A DNA stretch of 59,393 nucleotides, from the IMG/VR virus record IMGVR_UViG_3300042922_000225, positions 1-59,393 of that record. One strand, given 5' to 3'. Below, one piece after another: positions 3,851-59,393 of this stretch. Each line of letters begins with the position of its first letter. Within the stretch, counting starts at the first letter, position 1. The notes beneath the pieces are model-generated. The model was not told the DNA's origin. It did no database searches and saw only the letters and a program-made list of their open reading frames with translations. The stretch comes from a virus. A program made the position numbers and the translations under genes.

Positions 3851-4227
3851 TAGAACGGGCTCCCCGAGTCGTCGTTGCCGTCATCCAGGACCGTGACGGT
3901 TCCGAACTTCAGGGTGATGCCCTTCTGAACAGCGCCGTTCTTGTCGGTGTACTCCCGGACCTCCTGCTTGGCGTCCTCTACGCGGATTTTCTGACCCTTC
4001 TTGATGCTTGCAAGGGTCTGAGCCGCGTCGCCACCTGCCTCCACGTCATACCAAGTGGTGCCGGTCTGAACGAACTGGCCGTCCTTCTTGTACCCCTCGT
4101 TGATGGCGATAGGAACCTGCTTCACGCCTCGCGTGCCCTCGCGGTCGTAGGCGGGGTTACGGGCGCCCGACGCCGCGTAGCCGACCAGCGTAACGGTGGC
4201 ACCAAGGTAGTTGTTGGGGTTGCTCAT
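3850..4227 (-). CDS. ssb: Single-stranded DNA-binding protein (OB fold)
   Basis: The 125-aa sequence opens with an SSB-like OB-fold pattern (NNYLGATVTLVGYAASGARNPAYDREG, followed by strands in VPIAINEGY and TWYDVEAGGDAA) and ends in a short acidic tail (DDGNDDSGSPF), which in SSB proteins recruits partners. It would coat ssDNA during replication and recombination. It clusters with a PD-(D/E)XK nuclease and an Erf-like annealing protein, a standard phage recombination module. Its ATG overlaps the upstream stop (ATGA), with the Shine-Dalgarno AAGGAG inside the last codons of that gene. Confidence 0.8.
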   Translation of the reverse strand: MSNPNNYLGATVTLVGYAASGARNPAYDREGTRGVKQVPIAINEGYKKDGQFVQTGTTWYDVEAGGDAAQTLASIKKGQKIRVEDAKQEVREYTDKNGAVQKGITLKFGTVTVLDDGNDDSGSPF

Positions 4228-4427
4228 GCGTTCTCCTTCTGGTTGTTCAGGGTAATTCGTGCGCGGCGGGCAAAGTTGCTATAAGCCTTCTCGACTTCCG
4301 CCAGCTTCTTCTCGGATCGGCTCGCACCCCACCGCGTCAGCGAGAAACGGAACTCCGTCTGAGCGGCGTCCCCCGTCTCCAGCTTCGTCACGTAATGAGC
4401 GAACCCGATCCTCTCTGTCGTAATCAT
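4224..4427 (-). CDS. Hypothetical protein, 67 aa, in recombination module
   Basis: A small basic helical protein (RFSLTRWGASRSEKKLAEVEKAYSNFARRARITL) lying between the nuclease and SSB genes. Its last codons (QKENA) double as the Shine-Dalgarno AGAAGGAG for ssb, and its own start uses the same arrangement from the upstream gene (EKENA). I do not recognise the family. Confidence 0.65.
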   Translation of the reverse strand: MITTERIGFAHYVTKLETGDAAQTEFRFSLTRWGASRSEKKLAEVEKAYSNFARRARITLNNQKENA

Positions 4428-5353
4428 GCGTTCTCCTTCTCTAGCTGTTTCAGTACATCCTTGCGCTTCTTCTGCGCGTGCCGGGCGGTAAGGGCTCCTT
4501 GGAACAGGTCAAACCCGGCTTCAATCAAACCGTAGTCGATCACATGCAGTTTTGCAAACGCGGGGATGAAGTTACCGTTCCGGTCGGAGTCATCGGGCCG
4601 CATCTGGAACACGGCGTACTGACTGAAATCCGGGACGGGCTCCTCCACCCACCACGAGTCTACCTGACCCCCGTGGTGTTTTGCAACACTGGGAACGATC
4701 TTGTAGTAAACAGACCCCGGGGTGCCTTCGGGGACCTCCTTCGCCCACGTGTGACAGGCTCCGAGGGCTGCAAGCTGAGCTTCGTGGCTCTCGTGAACGA
4801 GCCGGGAGGTCTTGTCATCCCCCAGTGTCATCACGTCGTCCACCTCGCCCACCCAGTCCGCCGTACCCGCATAGCCCTGCCCGAAGAACGTACCTTCGGT
4901 CAGGACCGTGCGGAAGGTGTGCTCGGACTCCCAGATGTGGAACGCCTCGATCATCTGCCACAGGTCATTGCGGCCTTCTGCGGGCTCCGGCTCAAACCAA
5001 CCCCGCCGGATCGCCTCGGTGTAGGTGTGCATGAAGGTTCCGGTTTCGGATGTATCGTCAAGCACCCCCATACTGTAGTCGTACACCGTTACCTCGTCCA
5101 TCTTCTCAGGGCTCAGCCGCCGAGAGTAATACTGGAGGTAGCGCATACCTTGTTCTTCGGTACGAGACAGAAGGGAGTCGATATTGGCAACAGCGAAAGC
5201 AGCGGTCTGCTCAATGTGCCAGTTAACGATCCCCTCCTTCTCGATAGCCGAAGTAACAGAAGTCACACCCGGTACGATTTCACCTGTAAACGGGTTCCGA
5301 TAGCCCCGACCTCCGTACCCGCTGGCGGGCACCACTAATTTCGGAACACTCAC
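4424..5353 (-). CDS. PD-(D/E)XK nuclease (RecB/Cas4-like exonuclease)
   Basis: The 309-aa protein matches RecB-like phage nucleases: an early His (TGTFMHTYTEAIRRG, about residue 107), the metal ligands in GTADWVGEVDDVMTLGDDKTSR (Asp, then the D-x-K of DDKTS near residue 178), and a downstream helix HEAQLAALGACHTW equivalent to the QxxxY region. It would resect dsDNA ends for the neighbouring Erf-like annealing protein. The GTG start at 5353 overlaps the stop of that gene (GTGA). Confidence 0.75.
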   Translation of the reverse strand: MSVPKLVVPASGYGGRGYRNPFTGEIVPGVTSVTSAIEKEGIVNWHIEQTAAFAVANIDSLLSRTEEQGMRYLQYYSRRLSPEKMDEVTVYDYSMGVLDDTSETGTFMHTYTEAIRRGWFEPEPAEGRNDLWQMIEAFHIWESEHTFRTVLTEGTFFGQGYAGTADWVGEVDDVMTLGDDKTSRLVHESHEAQLAALGACHTWAKEVPEGTPGSVYYKIVPSVAKHHGGQVDSWWVEEPVPDFSQYAVFQMRPDDSDRNGNFIPAFAKLHVIDYGLIEAGFDLFQGALTARHAQKKRKDVLKQLEKENA

Positions 5354-6027
5354 TCGCTTTCGAGTTCCTTGTACAGCAGTTCGTAGACCTCAGCGCGGTT
5401 CTTACCCGGGTTAGCGGACTCGACCTTCTTAAAGCGTTCCCCCAACGTTTCGGGGGTGAACTTACCCGTGGCGATGTACTCCGTGTTCAGCTTAGTCTTG
5501 TACTCCGAGTTCACCTGACGGCTAGGCGGAGTACCCTTGTTCCGGGCCTGCTCAACCTTCTGCTGTGCGCCGCTCGGAGCTTCGGGCGTTCCTGCCTTGC
5601 CCGCATCTTCCGCAGACTGCTCGGTGATAAGGAAGGTGCGAAGTAGGGCGTTCTTCAGAGCATTGGTGGACCCGATGTTGGATGCTACCGCAGTGCCCGT
5701 TGCCAGGCCGTCTCCGGTACCTGAAACGGTTACGCTAGAGCCGTCCACAGTAGACACGATGGTGTAGGTGCCCTTGATGACAATGGAGACCTGAAGACGG
5801 TTATTGTTCAGCAGGTTCTCGTGCTTAATGACCTCCTCGTTGGGGAGGAAGATCAGTTTGTTAGCCACGAACTGCCGCTTGGTCTCTGCTGCCGCGTCCA
5901 CCGCCGTAATATAGGGCTTTCCACCCATGTTACCCGGGAGAGTTCCATTCTTCTCCACCGAAAGACTCTTCAGTACCTCCGCAAGCGCCGTGTAGACGTG
6001 CGGAACTTCAATCTGTGCCTGGACCAA
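5350..6027 (-). CDS. Erf-family single-strand annealing protein
   Basis: 225 aa. The central part (VTVSGTGDGLATGTAVASN, then STNALKNALLRTFLITEQ) fits the Erf superfamily pattern, in which a Gly-Asp segment precedes a helix that ends in an ALKYALLxxFLI-like stretch. The C-terminal third is a Pro/Gln/Lys-rich linker plus a small helical domain (LGERFKKVESANPGKNRAEVYELLYKEL), typical of these proteins. It would anneal complementary ssDNA together with SSB and the PD-(D/E)XK nuclease. The start is TTG at 6027 with GAGGA upstream. An HNH homing gene has been inserted just upstream and overlaps the start by 20 nt. Confidence 0.75.
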   Translation of the reverse strand: MVQAQIEVPHVYTALAEVLKSLSVEKNGTLPGNMGGKPYITAVDAAAETKRQFVANKLIFLPNEEVIKHENLLNNNRLQVSIVIKGTYTIVSTVDGSSVTVSGTGDGLATGTAVASNIGSTNALKNALLRTFLITEQSAEDAGKAGTPEAPSGAQQKVEQARNKGTPPSRQVNSEYKTKLNTEYIATGKFTPETLGERFKKVESANPGKNRAEVYELLYKELESE

Positions 6028-15350: not shown

Positions 15351-15505
15351 GGGATAATCCTTTCTCCCACTCGTGCGAAGTAGTCCTCATGTGACGGGGC
15401 AAGGGTCACCTTAGTCATGTGGTGGGGGTTGCCTCGCTCAATCGGAATCCACTCGTTGGCGATGATGCGGTCGTTAGCATCCAGGGTTACGCGGCGGGGG
15501 TTCAC
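15347..15505 (-). CDS. Hypothetical protein, 52 aa
   Basis: GTG at 15505 overlaps the upstream stop (GTGA). It reads VNPRRVTLDANDRIIANEWIP and ends FARVGERIIP; beta-rich. Family unknown. Confidence 0.5.
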   Translation of the reverse strand: MNPRRVTLDANDRIIANEWIPIERGNPHHMTKVTLAPSHEDYFARVGERIIP

Positions 15506-15666
15506 GGAAGCACCCGAACCCGCACCATGGAAACGAATTCATGCCCGCTACCCGTTGAAACCCCGATGTCCTGCACGGCATTTTTCAGTCCGTAACTGGT
15601 CATCGTATATGGGTCGGAGTGGTCGTTAAGAAAAGTCAGGACGTAGATGCCCTTGTCGTGGTTCAC
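15502..15666 (-). CDS. Hypothetical protein, 54 aa
   Basis: GTG at 15666 follows CTAAGGAGGCACC. The product (VNHDKGIYVLTFLNDHSDPY) looks like a small beta-alpha fold. It is the first gene after the promoter/terminator composite at 15703-15747. Confidence 0.55.
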   Translation of the reverse strand: MNHDKGIYVLTFLNDHSDPYTMTSYGLKNAVQDIGVSTGSGHEFVSMVRVRVLP

Positions 15667-15702
15667 GGTGCCTCCTTAGGCGTTGTCGTTGTTGGTACTC
15701 AC

Positions 15703-15731
15703 AGTAAACCACAAAACCCCCGGCTGCGCAA
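15703..15731 (-). promoter_or_regulatory. Promoter overlapping a terminator
   Basis: TTGCGC (15726-15731), 17 nt, TTTACT (15703-15708), then GTGAGTACCAACAACGACAACGCCTAAGGAGG-type leader. The -35 lies in the loop of the terminator hairpin at 15715-15747. Confidence 0.5.
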
Positions 15732-15747
15732 GAGGCAAACGGGGGTT
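15713..15747 (-). terminator. Intrinsic terminator
   Basis: On the minus strand AACCCCCG (15740-15747) pairs with CGGGGGTT (15715-15722) and is followed by a T run. It would end the transcript coming from 16035. Confidence 0.7.
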
Positions 15748-15750
15748 CGT

Positions 15751-15764
15751 GGGGGGGGGGGGGG
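15751..15764. repeat. 14-base G homopolymer
   Basis: An uninterrupted run of 14 G (C on the transcribed strand) lies between the stop of the 85-aa gene and its terminator. Runs of this length are prone to slippage and to sequencing error, so the length is uncertain. Confidence 0.85.
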
Positions 15765-15777
15765 ATTCACCACAGGT

Positions 15778-16035
15778 TCAGGCCGATGCCCGCCCCGTAG
15801 GCTCCCAGGACTCAATTTCAGAAAGCACGCGCGTAACATCCCCCTGCGTCTGCCAGCCAAGCACACCATCTGTGATGGGGGTTTCGTAGGTAATAAGCCA
15901 TTTGTCCCCCGAGAACTTGATAACTCCAATTTCGTAGGGCGCGTTAAGGTCACCGTAACCGTCCGTGATGACCGACGCCCCGAAGCCGTTTTCGAACCTG
16001 TGGACTGTCTGTCGTTCATTCTGCTTGACAATCAT
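15778..16035 (-). CDS. Hypothetical protein, 85 aa
   Basis: AAAGGAGGGACACA precedes the ATG. The protein is mostly beta (VHRFENGFGASVITDGYGDL, IGVIKFSGDKWLITYETPIT), and a small barrel is likely. It is the last gene before the 15713-15747 terminator. Confidence 0.65.
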   Translation of the reverse strand: MIVKQNERQTVHRFENGFGASVITDGYGDLNAPYEIGVIKFSGDKWLITYETPITDGVLGWQTQGDVTRVLSEIESWEPTGRASA

Positions 16036-16047
16036 TGTGTCCCTCCT

Positions 16048-16245
16048 TTAGGCGTTGTCGTTGCTGGTGCGAGTGCGGAGTCGTCGCTTGGTAGCGCGCA
16101 TGTCCAGGATGGCTGCCTGCAACGTGGGGCCGCAGCCCTCCACAGAGGAATCTCCCTGCTGCACATAGAAGAGGTAGCCGGGGCGCAGGCCGAGCTTCTT
16201 CTGGAGTTGGAGGGGTGGTATTTCAAAGACTCGATCTACGTACAT
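16048..16245 (-). CDS. Hypothetical protein, 65 aa
   Basis: ATG at 16245 (MYVDRVFEIPPLQLQKKLG) lies one base after the upstream stop. The last codons (RTRTSNDNA) together with the stop contain the sequence ACCAGCAACGACAACGCCTA AAGGAGG, almost the same as the untranslated leader at 15670-15698. A translated end and an untranslated leader therefore share one repeat. Confidence 0.6.
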   Translation of the reverse strand: MYVDRVFEIPPLQLQKKLGLRPGYLFYVQQGDSSVEGCGPTLQAAILDMRATKRRLRTRTSNDNA

Positions 16246-16246
16246 A

Positions 16247-16345
16247 TCAGAAGTTCCAAACGTTAAGGCCAGTGCCCGCACCATACGCGGCGAGAAGTAG
16301 GAAGGGAGTGTAGAACAGGGTTCGGACGAAAGTGCGCTTAGTCAC
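16247..16345 (-). CDS. Micropeptide, 32 aa
   Basis: GTG at 16345 overlaps the end of the upstream membrane gene. VTKRTFVRTLFYTPFLLLAAYGAGTGLNVWNF has a basic start and one hydrophobic segment, so a membrane-associated peptide is likely. Confidence 0.5.
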   Translation of the reverse strand: MTKRTFVRTLFYTPFLLLAAYGAGTGLNVWNF

Positions 16346-36476: not shown

Positions 36477-36727
36477 TGCCGGAGCTTAAGCCTACGGGCA
36501 AGATCATCGCACGAGGTCAGTCAGGGTTCTCAGTGCTCAGTACGGGTGTTGACATCGCGTTTGACCGTCCTATGCCGGAAGGTTCCACCTACAAGGTCTT
36601 CTACCGCCAGATATCAGGTGTGAACGTTGGACTCCCGTCAACCTCGAACCAAACCCCTACTGGATTCCGGGCTTCAGTTGGCATAGGCGTTGCCGCACAG
36701 TTTGAGTGGCTGGTGATTGAGGACTGA
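36476..36727 (+). CDS. Small beta-rich virion protein, 83 aa
   Basis: Starts in the stop of the fibre-like gene. MPELKPTGKIIARGQSGFSVLSTGVDIAFDRP and VGIGVAAQFEWLVIED read as a beta-sandwich, like bacteriophage receptor or H-type fibre ends. Likely works with the 450-aa protein. Confidence 0.6.
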   Translation: MPELKPTGKIIARGQSGFSVLSTGVDIAFDRPMPEGSTYKVFYRQISGVNVGLPSTSNQTPTGFRASVGIGVAAQFEWLVIED

Positions 36728-36740
36728 TAAGATTGAATTA
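36725..36740 (+). promoter_or_regulatory. Degenerate late motif copy left of moron 1
   Basis: TGATAAGATTGAATTAGACG matches the copy right of the moron (TGATAAACTGGATTATAGACG at 37434) closely, so the moron lies between related sequences. Confidence 0.4.
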
Positions 36741-36794
36741 GACGGGTGCCCCTCCCGTTGGCTGCTAGTTACCCTCCTCTCTCGCTAGCGCCAG

Positions 36795-36837
36795 GCCCCT
36801 CGGTTGAGCGTCCCACTTCCGCTCCCGAGGGGCTTAA
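36795..36837 (+). terminator. Intrinsic terminator
   Basis: GCCCCTCGG (36795-36803) pairs with CCGAGGGGC (36825-36833), followed by TTAAAC. Confidence 0.75.
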
Positions 36838-36850
36838 ACTTTCCCAGCGT

Positions 36851-36909
36851 CTTCCCAGGTTGTGGGTGGCGGTTTGGGGTTGAGGGGTGGTAGTGTCGAG
36901 GTAGACAAC
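36851..36909 (+). promoter_or_regulatory. Moron promoter repeat, copy A
   Basis: 59 bp with 53 positions identical to 41678-41736. The core GGTGGCGGTTTGGGGTT and TGGTAGTGTCGAGGTAGACA includes a -10-like TAGACA about 16 nt after TTGAGG. Each copy precedes a small membrane-protein gene. Confidence 0.65.
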
Positions 36910-36924
36910 GCTTGAGGAGGCGAA

Positions 36925-37380
36925 GTGATCGAATCTATCTTCTTTAACCCCTGGATCTGGATCGGGACCACCCTATGCACGATCCTGGTGGCGGTACTGA
37001 TTTTCGCAGTAGTGAGGGCTATTAGGGGCTCTGACGGGTATCTGGAGGACTGGCCCTGGATTACGGCTATCATCTCGGGCATCCTCGCCCTAGTTTTGGT
37101 GCCGACCCACTTCGGGTTTGTGCTCCCGCCCTACGACGCTTCGTTCTATCAGACCTACCGAATTACCGGGGAAGTGACGAGCATCGAGGCAGCGTTTAAC
37201 GGCGAGGAGGGGACCATGAGTCAGGTATTTGTCGCGGAGGTCGAGGGTGTAGACCTATTCATCCGTTCCGACGATCAGCGGTTCCGCACCGTCGATACGG
37301 GCGATGACGTGAACCTCGTTTGCACAAAGCAGTTCCGGTACTTCCAGCAGCCTTGGTACGATTGCAGCTTCGGAGGCTGA
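36925..37380 (+). CDS. Moron 1: membrane protein with external domain, 151 aa
   Basis: GTG at 36925 with GAGGAGG upstream. Two transmembrane helices (WIWIGTTLCTILVAVLIFAVV and WITAIISGILALVLVPTHF) precede a soluble beta-rich domain (YRITGEVTSIEAAFNGEEGTMSQVF, DDVNLVCTKQFRYFQQPWYDCSF) with two Cys. It has its own promoter and terminators on both sides, the layout of a moron expressed apart from late genes. Superinfection exclusion or host modification is a plausible role. Confidence 0.7.
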   Translation: MIESIFFNPWIWIGTTLCTILVAVLIFAVVRAIRGSDGYLEDWPWITAIISGILALVLVPTHFGFVLPPYDASFYQTYRITGEVTSIEAAFNGEEGTMSQVFVAEVEGVDLFIRSDDQRFRTVDTGDDVNLVCTKQFRYFQQPWYDCSFGG

Positions 37381-37394
37381 TCGTACCCCGCAAG

Positions 37395-37424
37395 CCCCTT
37401 GTTCTTCGGAGCAGGGGGTTTTTG
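37395..37424 (+). terminator. Terminator with cUUCGg loop
   Basis: CCCCTTGTTC (37395-37404) pairs with GAGCAGGGGG (37409-37418) around TTCG, followed by TTTTTG. It ends the moron transcript. Confidence 0.85.
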
Positions 37425-37433
37425 CGTGCCGCC

Positions 37434-37446
37434 TGATAAACTGGAT
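37434..37446 (+). promoter_or_regulatory. Late promoter motif copy ahead of connectors
   Basis: TGATAAACTGGATTATAG, 22 nt before the adaptor gene (37469), directly after the moron terminator. Confidence 0.65.
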
Positions 37447-37468
37447 TATAGACGTTTGGAGAGAGTTT

Positions 37469-39418: not shown

Positions 39419-40138
39419 CTAATCCCGCTTGAACATGGGTGGTCGGCTAATAACGTCGGCCACCTTTCTCATTCTCTCGGCGTCGTCTCGACACATTCCC
39501 GCCGCCGTGTTGCAACCGCTGCAAAGATAAGCCACAACGCACTTCCCGCAGGAACGGCCTGCTTGCGGACAACATGAGTGATCGTGGTGGATGTGAAGGT
39601 CCTTGCCCTCCCCGTCAAACCCGCAAGCCTCGCATGTTCCGTTACGCATCAGGTAAGCCAACTCATCCCAGGTCAAGCCAAACCGCTGGGCGCGACCCGA
39701 GTGCTTATTACACATTCCGTTCTGCCCCGTCCGTTCGCACCTAAAAACGCGGCAGGGGTATGTCCTGTCCTCCGTCCAGGGTGCCGCCCCGGAATCCCGC
39801 ACCGATTTGTAATGACGCTCGCAGTAGCCCCGCACGTCTACAGCCCGGTTGCACCCGTCGAACTTACAATGTGTCCCCGATCCCGGGCCATAGGTTTCCC
39901 CCGTCCTGAGCCACTTCATGTAGTGAGACTTGCACCACCCCCGGGTGCGCGCGTAGGCTTGACAACCCTCGTGGCCGCACAGCGGGCGTGGGCCGTTCAC
40001 CCCTCGGGATTGAATGGGTCTAAGGGTCCCGCCCTTTCGATACTGGATCTGATGTGATTGGCACAGACCAGTGTCCCGGAAGTTCAACCGGTTCCAGCAT
40101 CCATCGAAGGCACATGGGGTTGTATCGTTTTTAATCAT
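39419..40138 (-). CDS. Endonuclease VII-like homing nuclease, antisense
   Basis: 239 aa on the strand opposite to its late neighbours. Four fingers of the type Cx3-4Cx...GxCxxHY (for example CAFDGCWNRLNFRDTGLCQSH and CKFDGCNRAVDVRGYCERHY) precede the nuclease core typical of recombination endonuclease VII (CEACGFDGE, LHIHHDHSC, CGKCVVAYLCSGCN). It lies between two late motif copies and three bases after the 68-aa gene. Its finger type is shared with 34279-34797. Confidence 0.85.
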   Translation of the reverse strand: MIKNDTTPCAFDGCWNRLNFRDTGLCQSHQIQYRKGGTLRPIQSRGVNGPRPLCGHEGCQAYARTRGWCKSHYMKWLRTGETYGPGSGTHCKFDGCNRAVDVRGYCERHYKSVRDSGAAPWTEDRTYPCRVFRCERTGQNGMCNKHSGRAQRFGLTWDELAYLMRNGTCEACGFDGEGKDLHIHHDHSCCPQAGRSCGKCVVAYLCSGCNTAAGMCRDDAERMRKVADVISRPPMFKRD

Positions 40139-40800: not shown

Positions 40801-41616
40801 GTGCCCGTGGATTACGAACGGCTCCGGAGCAACGCGCGACAGTCCGTCGTTGACGTTCGAATCGGACCCTCCGGCGGTACCACTCTTGGTATCACGGACC
40901 TGGCTGTGCCCCTTGCCACCGAGCTTAACAACACTGGCGGAACCTCGGGTATGCAGAAGGCATCGCAGAGCATCAGTTGGAACGACTGGAGCTTCGGCCT
41001 TGAGGCTTCCGAGACCAACAACGAGCCGTCGCTTGCTGACGCGGCTTCCTACGAGGAGTTCGGTCAGTCCAACTACGGCGGCGATGTTTCGTTCTACATG
41101 CCTGCCACTTACGATGACAATAGCAACGCGCATAGCGTCATCTACGACCTGACCGACCAGCCGGGTACGATCAACGACATCTCGATCCGCATTGACGGGG
41201 ACAAGGCCGTTGGTTCGGACTTCGTGGACGGCGACTACGTTTCGGCATTCCGCGCGGAGATCGGTGGAGAGGCCAACCCCTTCACCCCGGGCGAGTCCAA
41301 GCGCCGGACGGTTTCGTACAACCAGAAGGGCGACTTCTCGCATTACACGGTTGTCGGCACCCACACCATCGTTCCGATCCCCGCCCCCACCGACCCGTGG
41401 GATGCAGGCCGGAAGGCACGCCTTCGCGCGTCGGTCCAGGGCCGCGAGTACACCAACGCTCTTGAGTTCCGCTCCTCGGACGCGACGGTTGTGGACATCT
41501 ACAAGGGCGGCTTCTATGAGGTCACCGGTACCGCGGGCGACACGGCCACGATCACCATTGAGGACGTTGAGGCCGGTACGTCGGTTGATGTCGAGGTGAC
41601 GGTTACCGCGCCGTAA
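40801..41616 (+). CDS. Major tail protein with C-terminal Ig-like domain
   Basis: 271 aa. The N-terminal 190 residues form a beta-rich tube fold (VRIGPSGGTTLGITDLAVPLATELNN, FSHYTVVGTHTIVPIP). The last 75 (RLRASVQGREYTNALEFRSSDATVVDIYKGGFYEVTGTAGDTATITI) fit a bacterial Ig-like domain (Big_2 type), common as tail decoration. Its last 16 bases are duplicated beyond moron 2 (42035-42050). AAGGAG precedes the GTG. Confidence 0.8.
   Translation: MPVDYERLRSNARQSVVDVRIGPSGGTTLGITDLAVPLATELNNTGGTSGMQKASQSISWNDWSFGLEASETNNEPSLADAASYEEFGQSNYGGDVSFYMPATYDDNSNAHSVIYDLTDQPGTINDISIRIDGDKAVGSDFVDGDYVSAFRAEIGGEANPFTPGESKRRTVSYNQKGDFSHYTVVGTHTIVPIPAPTDPWDAGRKARLRASVQGREYTNALEFRSSDATVVDIYKGGFYEVTGTAGDTATITIEDVEAGTSVDVEVTVTAP
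41601..41616 (+). repeat. 16-bp direct repeat, left copy
   Basis: GGTTACCGCGCCGTAA, the last 16 bases of the major tail gene including its stop, is repeated exactly at 42035-42050. The two copies bound the moron. Confidence 0.85.
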
Positions 41617-41620
41617 GCAA

Positions 41621-41630
41621 CCCCCCCCCC
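41621..41630. repeat. 10-base C homopolymer
   Basis: Ten C in a row directly after the major tail gene, at the left edge of the inserted moron; prone to slippage. Confidence 0.8.
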
Positions 41631-41635
41631 ACACG

Positions 41636-41665
41636 ACCCCTCTTGCTTAGGTAGGAGGGGTTTCG
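41636..41665 (+). terminator. Intrinsic terminator
   Basis: ACCCCTC (41636-41642) pairs with GAGGGGT (41655-41661), followed by TTCGTGTT. Confidence 0.65.
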
Positions 41666-41677
41666 TGTTCCCAGGAA

Positions 41678-41736
41678 CTTTTCAGGTTGAGGGTGGCGGT
41701 TTGGGGTTCGGGGATGGTAGTGTCGAGGTAGACAAC
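41678..41736 (+). promoter_or_regulatory. Moron promoter repeat, copy B
   Basis: 59 bp matching 36851-36909 at 53 positions, including GGTGGCGGTTTGGGGTT and TGGTAGTGTCGAGGTAGACAAC. It precedes the second membrane moron. Confidence 0.65.
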
Positions 41737-41762
41737 ATACTTCGACTTTGGAGCAAAGATTC

Positions 41763-42032
41763 GTGACTTATACCCGCCCCGTATACATGACCAACCCCGC
41801 GTACACTTCGGGGTGGAAGATAGTAACGCTTAGTTTACTTGCTGGCGTTCTCTCCACCGCTGGGTTTTTTGGCGTTGGGTGGGGCCTGGCGAATCTAGCT
41901 TATAACTTGTTCGGTGTGCCCCTGTCGATGATCGGGTTTATGGGTCTGGTCACGGGGTATGTCGGATGTGCGGTGGGGAGGGCGTCAGGTTGGGTGACAT
42001 ATCACTCGATCTCGCAGACGAGGCGGGCATAA
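41763..42032 (+). CDS. Moron 2: two-helix membrane protein, 89 aa
   Basis: GTG at 41763 with TTGGAG upstream; an in-frame TTG at 41748 is possible. Two transmembrane helices (IVTLSLLAGVLSTAGFFGVGWGLANL and LSMIGFMGLVTGYVGCAVG) end in a basic tail (HSISQTRRA). It stands inside the late tail genes with its own promoter and is bounded by a 16-bp direct repeat, so it was probably inserted recently. Function unknown; exclusion is possible. Confidence 0.7.
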   Translation: MTYTRPVYMTNPAYTSGWKIVTLSLLAGVLSTAGFFGVGWGLANLAYNLFGVPLSMIGFMGLVTGYVGCAVGRASGWVTYHSISQTRRA

Positions 42033-42034
42033 GC

Positions 42035-42050
42035 GGTTACCGCGCCGTAA
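42035..42050 (+). repeat. 16-bp direct repeat, right copy
   Basis: Exact copy of 41601-41616. Here it is outside any gene, just before a late motif, as expected if the moron arrived with duplication of the junction. Confidence 0.85.
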
Positions 42051-42054
42051 CTCC

Positions 42055-42069
42055 TGCTAAACTGGGATA
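42055..42069 (+). promoter_or_regulatory. Late promoter motif copy ahead of chaperones
   Basis: TGCTAAACTGGGATAG, followed by a hairpin-rich leader of about 80 nt before the tail assembly chaperone gene. Confidence 0.6.
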
Positions 42070-42153
42070 GAGCACAAATAGCGTGCAAGCCCCCGGTCTT
42101 TCGGCTTCTAGGCTGGAGGGTCGGGGGTCACGCTTTTGATTGAGAGGGAGAAC

Positions 42154-42741
42154 ATGACTGACGTTACGCCTAACCCGAAGACGCTTGACCTGGGAGCGAT
42201 TCTTGCCGGGATTTCTTACCCCAAGGACACTGTAGAGGTCTGGCTCGATGAGGCAACGGCCTACGAGATCAGCAAGGCGGATGCCGCTATCAAGCGCGCT
42301 GAGCTTATGGGGGACGCCGAACTGGTGTCTAAGCTGGAAACCGAGCGCGAAAAGCTGGTGGAGCTTGGGGCTTCCTCCCGGCTGGTTTTCCACCTGACTG
42401 GCGTTTCCCGAAAGGTCAAGGACGACATTATCACCAAGACCGATGAGAAGTTTAAGCCCGAGTATAGCTTCATGGGAACACGCGTGCCAAACCGGGAGGC
42501 GGACGACTACCACGCTAACTTGCGCTGGGCAGTCCACATTGAAAAGTTCGTGGCCGCTGACGGCTCCGAGCTTGTAGCCCCGGGGCCTGAAAGCATCGAG
42601 AAGTTCCGGGATCTAGCCCCCGCACCCGCAACCGAGGCTATCGAAAAGGCGATCACCAATCTTTCCGAGGGTGCCAAGAGCGGGTTTGAGTCCCTTGCCC
42701 AGGAGCACGCTTTTTTGTCACAGCCCTCACCCGGGGCGTAA
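42154..42741 (+). CDS. Tail assembly chaperone (gpG-like)
   Basis: 195 aa from ATG 42154 with GAGAGGGAG upstream. Acidic and helical (YEISKADAAIKRAELMGDAELVSKLETEREKLVEL), located between the tail tube and tape measure as in lambda G. A slippery site T TTT TTG at 42711-42717 lies eight codons before the stop, allowing a -1 shift into the next frame. Confidence 0.8.
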   Translation: MTDVTPNPKTLDLGAILAGISYPKDTVEVWLDEATAYEISKADAAIKRAELMGDAELVSKLETEREKLVELGASSRLVFHLTGVSRKVKDDIITKTDEKFKPEYSFMGTRVPNREADDYHANLRWAVHIEKFVAADGSELVAPGPESIEKFRDLAPAPATEAIEKAITNLSEGAKSGFESLAQEHAFLSQPSPGA

Positions 42742-58843: not shown

Positions 58844-59184
58844 AGGTTCTCACGCTCCAAGATAGCAAGTACATCTTTCGCACCGCCGTAGGGGTCCTCG
58901 TTACCATACTCGATCGCCCAAGACTTCTGATGCTGAATAGCCCGTTTCAATTCGTCCCGAAGACCCGTGAGCGCCGCACGGAGGGTCTTGTACTCCTTCG
59001 ACACACGCTTGTAAACGTAGCCGTCGTGCCAGACCGTGAAACGAGGCCCATCGCCGTAGCTGTAGGTCGTCTCGATGCTCCAGTGGCAATCCTTGTCCTT
59101 GGGGTGATCCACGTTGACAAGCTCGTACCAGATACCGCTCAACCGAACGATCTCATCAGACAGCACGTTGTAGTCGTCGCTCAC
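58840..59184 (-). CDS. Hypothetical protein, 114 aa
   Basis: GTG at 59184 overlaps the stop of the HTH gene on the circular map (GTGA). N-terminal beta part (SIETTYSYGDGPRFTVWHDGYVYKRV) and a charged helix (TLRAALTGLRDELKRAIQHQKSW). The first codons are repeated at positions 1-29 of the window. Family unknown; sits just upstream of polA in the operon. Confidence 0.65.
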   Translation of the reverse strand: MSDDYNVLSDEIVRLSGIWYELVNVDHPKDKDCHWSIETTYSYGDGPRFTVWHDGYVYKRVSKEYKTLRAALTGLRDELKRAIQHQKSWAIEYGNEDPYGGAKDVLAILERENL

Positions 59185-59393
59185 AGCACCCTCCCTCTCG
59201 TGTTGAACCCGGAATCCCGGTTGCCCTCGATCTTACCGCGCCTTTCGAACTCACGCAACCCTCGGTTTACTTCTCTAATCACAGCCGCCTCTCCCGACCC
59301 TCCACGTTCGAACGGGGCGTAGTCCGGGAAATGCCGCCGTAGAGTGCGGTGATCGACTCCCATTGTCCGGCGGATCTCATTCAGCGACACGCC
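59156..59393. repeat. Right copy of 238-bp terminal repeat / contig overlap
   Basis: Matches 1-238 with one mismatch (t at 59266, c at 111). It shows that the window ends join, so genes at both edges are one operon. Whether the repeat is a real packaged terminal repeat or an assembly overlap from a circular or permuted genome cannot be decided from the sequence. Confidence 0.9.
59181..59393 (-). CDS. Partial second copy of the HTH gene
   Basis: The C-terminal part of the helix-turn-helix protein (complete at 26-319), cut by the window end. It differs by Asn for Ser in REVNRGLREF. It is the same gene seen twice because of the terminal overlap, not a separate locus. Confidence 0.75.
   Translation of the reverse strand, partial: GVSLNEIRRTMGVDHRTLRRHFPDYAPFERGGSGEAAVIREVNRGLREFERRGKIEGNRDSGFNTRGRVL

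Follow-up and report, generated by a model that had tools for sequence, protein, structure and literature searches.

A cassette with a small predicted membrane-protein gene between two 17-bp copies of a tail gene end in a phage late operon

Extra genes between direct repeats in phage genomes

Morons are promoter-ORF-terminator units located between phage genes. In mycobacteriophage LRRHood, the insertion of genes 43-46 is flanked by 29-bp direct repeats, one of them at a gene's 3′ end, and its authors leaned towards gain, although they were unable to rule out that the relatives had lost the genes (PMC3029335). In Island3, a gene-end repeat of about 50 bp lies around an extra gene, gene 68 (PMC3029335).

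The locus described here resembles the LRRHood insertion, in that extra sequence lies between direct repeats, with one copy closing a gene at its 3′ end and the second in front of the gene that follows, and relatives without the insert keep a single gene end; however, the LRRHood insertion measures 1.35 kb, holds four genes including a repressor and has repeats of 29 bp. Island3 gene 68 is a small orphan gene whose end resembles that of the upstream gene and which is absent in a relative, like the gene between the repeats at 4224 and 4424 of our sequence, but its repeat is about 50 bp long and its second copy is coding. As in morons, a small orphan gene with a promoter-like element of its own stands between two structural genes where relatives have none, although the hairpin here stands before the ORF, with none directly after it, and a junction repeat is present. 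The cassette is also similar to the MPME ultra-small mobile elements in length and in its single small ORF, but differs in having no terminal inverted repeats, no second copy, no near-identical copies in other phages, and a 17-bp duplication. Therefore, this type of footprint, clean but not unprecedented, is already published for LRRHood and Island3, and what is new is a polarised gain within a late operon of structural genes together with a suggestive excess of gene-end duplications in the same genome.

The cassette and its flanking repeat

The window, that is, the whole stretch of DNA analysed, is a virus record of 59,393 bases, which bears a 238-bp exact direct repeat at both ends (1-238 and 59156-59393). 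Its order of tail, chaperone and tape-measure genes is that of the Microbacterium phages Cassita, Lifes, LeeroyJenkins, BarnCat and WaterT, and its major tail protein (MTP) is 64% identical to theirs and 71% identical to that of an IMG/VR contig, L001. An HNH/endonuclease VII gene (39419-40138, minus strand), which L001 lacks, sits inside the tail operon. The features around the cassette are as follows.

36841-36909, plus strand: other copy of the 69-bp promoter-like element, 87% identical, preceding a small ORF (36925-37380)
40801-41616, plus strand: MTP gene, major tail (tube) protein (Pfam PF25595 tail tube protein, E=1e-22; phrog_2491 major tail protein)
41600-41616, plus strand: repeat copy 1, CGGTTACCGCGCCGTAA, coding, the last 17 bp of the MTP gene, terminating at its stop codon
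41621-41630, plus strand: C10 homopolymer, one of only two G/C homopolymers of at least 8 in the window
41631-41668, plus strand: strong hairpin, terminator-like (-25.2 kcal/mol, z -4.4)
41668-41736, plus strand: 69-bp promoter-like element, with an extended -10-like TGGTAGTGT at 41715-41723
41763-42032, plus strand: moron ORF of 89 aa, GTG start with GGAG nearby, two predicted helices
42034-42050, plus strand: repeat copy 2, CGGTTACCGCGCCGTAA, non-coding, immediately ahead of the chaperone gene's late motif
42053-42065, plus strand: late motif CCTGCTAAACTGG, native partner of the MTP end, with extended -10-like TGNTAAACT; same position after the MTP gene in relatives
42075-42138, plus strand: leader hairpin before the chaperone gene (-39.5 kcal/mol, z -3.3)
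42154-42741, plus strand: tail assembly chaperone gene (PHROG 15960)

A preliminary description of this DNA had claimed an exact 16-bp direct repeat, one copy ending the major tail gene and the other outside any gene, just before the late motif. The exactness and both placements were borne out, as ORF 40801-41616 matches both tail families and 42034-42050 is non-coding with the late motif at 42053, but the length had to be corrected to 17 bp, the C at 41600 and 42034 matching too. Sequences flanking the two copies are unrelated on either side. In 60 order-3 simulated windows, searched for exact repeats within 1 kb, none of at least 17 bp and only two in total of at least 16 bp occurred, which rules out a chance origin; in IMG/VR the 16-mer occurs at four loci, by estimate no more than a database of that size would give by chance. 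Copy 1 spells out VTAP, the last residues of the MTP, and its stop codon, and the MTPs of relatives end in similar VTVT, VTVTA or TAP-like tails (VTV(T/A)-type), so the copy at 41600-41616 is taken as native and that at 42034-42050 as derived.

Between the copies lie, in order, GCAA, the C10 run, the hairpin, the 69-bp element and the ORF. All the parts named earlier (C10 run, terminator, promoter repeat and two-helix gene) were thus located, with the terminator and promoter roles to be read more cautiously. The hairpin is termed only terminator-like because a consensus terminator scan did not list it; the native leader hairpin comes after the late motif. The 69-bp element, which another small ORF shares and which holds an extended -10-like sequence, is a putative promoter and has no exact match in IMG/VR. 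The ORF, with 56% GC vs 62% in the MTP gene, is a predicted two-helix, small membrane-protein gene, for which AlphaFold without alignment gave two long helices (residues 12-50 and 54-86, pLDDT 74). No relatives of it were found by a peptide-pattern scan of IMG/VR and GTDB genomes, by tblastn on phages and plasmids, or in PHROG and Pfam, and a Foldseek search of the single-sequence model against viral models returned nothing significant. A further cassette that contains this 69-bp element (36720-37455) lies between two late motifs, both of which L001 has, with no ORF there; no exact gene-end repeat flanks this cassette (36841-37400).

The late motif, as CCTGNTAAACTGG, has 17 sites with at most 2 mismatches vs 3.6 expected, and the TGNTAAACT-type extended -10-like motif precedes late genes at 16 sites between 25297 and 52391, with no conserved -35 region; for that reason, retention of a -35 box by the repeat was rejected. 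At 42053-42153 a strong hairpin comes immediately after the late motif, ahead of the chaperone gene, and close relatives have a similar order; in more distant relatives the junction holds a terminator and then a promoter, and no gene.

The same junction in related phages

Among nine relatives at 58-71% MTP identity, eight (L001, Cassita, Lifes, BarnCat, WaterT, L020, L021 and L022) have an empty site, in which the late motif adjoins or overlaps the MTP stop, and the ninth, LeeroyJenkins, carries an unrelated HNH gene. The junction of L001 reads GTCACGTAA followed directly by TCCTGATAGACTAG, and that of Lifes, BarnCat, WaterT and Cassita reads ACTGCCTAA followed by TCTGATAAACTAG, with L020, L021 and L022 likewise and the MTP gene of L021 and L022 additionally ending GCGCCGTAG. 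In none of the eight is the last stretch of at least 13 bp of the MTP gene repeated downstream. The empty site had been predicted as one 16-mer running straight into CTCCTGCTAAACTGG; a single gene end abutting or overlapping the late motif is what the relatives have, homologous but not letter-identical at 58-71% identity, and the exact sequence was not seen, the closest relative standing at 71% MTP identity. Relatives without the moron that still had both repeat copies, named beforehand as the case against an insertion, were not encountered within that identity range.

Since eight relatives have an empty site and a single gene end, the cassette is most simply read, from sequence comparison, as a gain rather than a loss. 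The gain is probably recent, because the non-coding copy still agrees at 17/17 positions, although the MTP gene and its L001 counterpart share only about 70% identity. The HNH gene of LeeroyJenkins lies on the opposite strand exactly at the moron site, replaces the late motif and has no direct repeat, so the MTP-chaperone junction evidently tolerates insertions, and repeats are not required there.

Proposed origin of the cassette and alternative explanations

Based on the exact repeat, its unrelated flanks and the empty homologous sites with a single gene end, we consider it likely that this accessory cassette was gained at the MTP end when an illegitimate exchange out of register, or a template switch, took place between two phages and left a gene-end scar. 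The cassette, comprising 417 bp of new sequence with the hairpin, a putative promoter of its own and the two-helix ORF, would have entered between the MTP gene and the chaperone late motif, with the left junction exactly after the MTP stop codon and the native sequence resuming, at the right junction, 17 bp upstream of the left junction point. Such a re-entry would give the MTP end twice, as the coding copy and as a non-coding scar that preserves the native run-in to the late motif. The event may have been selected because the MTP stays intact and the chaperone promoter stays in place, and the hairpin would be expected to protect the moron against read-through from the tail gene, its putative promoter allowing expression separate from that of the tail operon. 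Thus, of the earlier proposal that recombination inserted the cassette and duplicated the junction, the gain and the duplicated gene end are upheld by the empty relatives, and how the duplication arose is what we infer. The expectation that the locus could reveal how morons enter late operons is satisfied in so far as the footprint limits the mechanism, but no donor was found in searches of IMG/VR, GTDB genomes, and phage and plasmid sequences. This counts against our reading, as do the HNH insertion and the second cassette with the 69-bp element, the former having no direct repeat and the latter no exact gene-end repeat.

The main rival, which we regard as unlikely, is a short-homology crossover, in which a donor with the same MTP end plus the cassette, or a circle with one 17-mer, was integrated via the 17 bp by a phage or host annealing protein and would be excised likewise. 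It would yield the same repeats as the off-register join. In its favour, the match between the copies is perfect and goes no further than the stop codon, which is where tail genes would cease to be homologous; acquisition by recombination is also what the LRRHood authors favour (PMC3029335). ERF annealing proteins occur in 8/10 related genomes searched, and a window protein (5350-6027, minus strand) is encoded at the position of the relatives' ERF protein, but the window itself gave no ERF match, this protein having none in Pfam and a predicted structure of low confidence. At sites of small-gene presence or absence in five close relatives, gene-junction repeats of 4-16 bp are shared in several cases and none in others, gain and loss being indistinguishable there. 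Against such a crossover stand the missing donor and the pairing length, since 17 bp is shorter than the efficient minimum of 23-27 bp for Red-beta and 31-34 bp for RecA (PMC3945230), for entry and loss alike. For the same reason, loss of the cassette between the repeats would be rare or would proceed by replication slippage.

The remaining readings carry far less weight. It is very improbable that the second copy is a retained regulator site or an upstream part of the late promoter instead of a scar; the 17-mer does hold a near-palindrome, TTACcGCGCcGTAA, and spans the late motif's -35/spacer region, but sequences upstream of the 16 late motifs are not conserved and a third full copy is absent from the window. 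Somewhat harder still to credit is an extra tandem MTP copy of which only the final 17 bp survived replacement or deletion, with the moron in its place, for although two neighbouring window genes both match tail family phrog_2491, this pair occurs in the empty-site relatives too, without a third copy, and no other MTP remnant is left within the cassette. The least probable is an ultra-small mobile unit with the 17 bp as target-site duplication: the 434 bp is close to the 439 bp of MPME1 (PMC3029335), but an MPME insertion is accompanied by 6 extra bp at one end, not by a 17-bp duplication (PMC3029335). Transposition and site-specific integration are both disfavoured because the cassette ends carry no inverted repeats, the window has no integrase or resolvase (profiles PF00589 and PF00239, whose controls matched), and no further cassette copy was found in the window or in phage records.

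The entry of extra genes into phage late operons usually stays invisible because the junctions decay. In this phage the scar has kept its exact match, the relatives set the direction as gain, and the joint lies exactly at the stop codon, which makes this cassette a defined test case for illegitimate vs short-homology gene acquisition.

Other gene-end repeats in the window

Five exact direct repeats of at least 16 bp within 1 kb occur in the window, all at gene junctions. ORF ends repeated exactly over at least 15 bp up to 1 kb downstream number 4/408 in the window vs 2/3,356 in 42 other phage loci (Fisher p=0.0017), an excess that is suggestive only, since the ORF set includes many that are not genuine genes, related loci do not count as independent and two of the window's four are overlaps of stop, RBS and start. 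With a threshold of at least 13 bp within 1 kb downstream, no repeated ORF ends were found in five 50-kb relatives. The four ends, those of the MTP gene and of the ORFs at 16048, 4424 and 23841, each form a pair that encloses small genes, and in two (MTP and 16048) the downstream copy is non-coding and the cassette also has a long C run and a hairpin. The second of these has two landmarks.

16048-16063, minus strand: original gene end, CAACGACAACGCCTAA, of ORF 16048-16284
15676-15691, minus strand: non-coding copy of that gene end

Its anatomy is that of the moron, namely a non-coding gene-end copy, a small gene (15778-16035), a C14 run and a hairpin; no relatives of the genes at 15502-16284 were found in eleven related records. 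A recurrent process in the lineage of this phage, adding small genes and copying the end of the gene upstream, is a tentative and rather doubtful extension.

At 4224-4240 and 4424-4440 (minus strand), a 17-bp repeat, AGAAGGAGAACGCATGA, stands at both ends of a 67-aa gene and contains an exonuclease gene end, an RBS and an ATGA start. Further exact or near-exact repeats of 17-20 bp lie at 13744-13762/13957-13975, 23827-23843/24176-24192 and 8724-8743/8905-8924, and in these, gene starts or RBS-start regions are repeated on either side of a single small gene or a pair of them.
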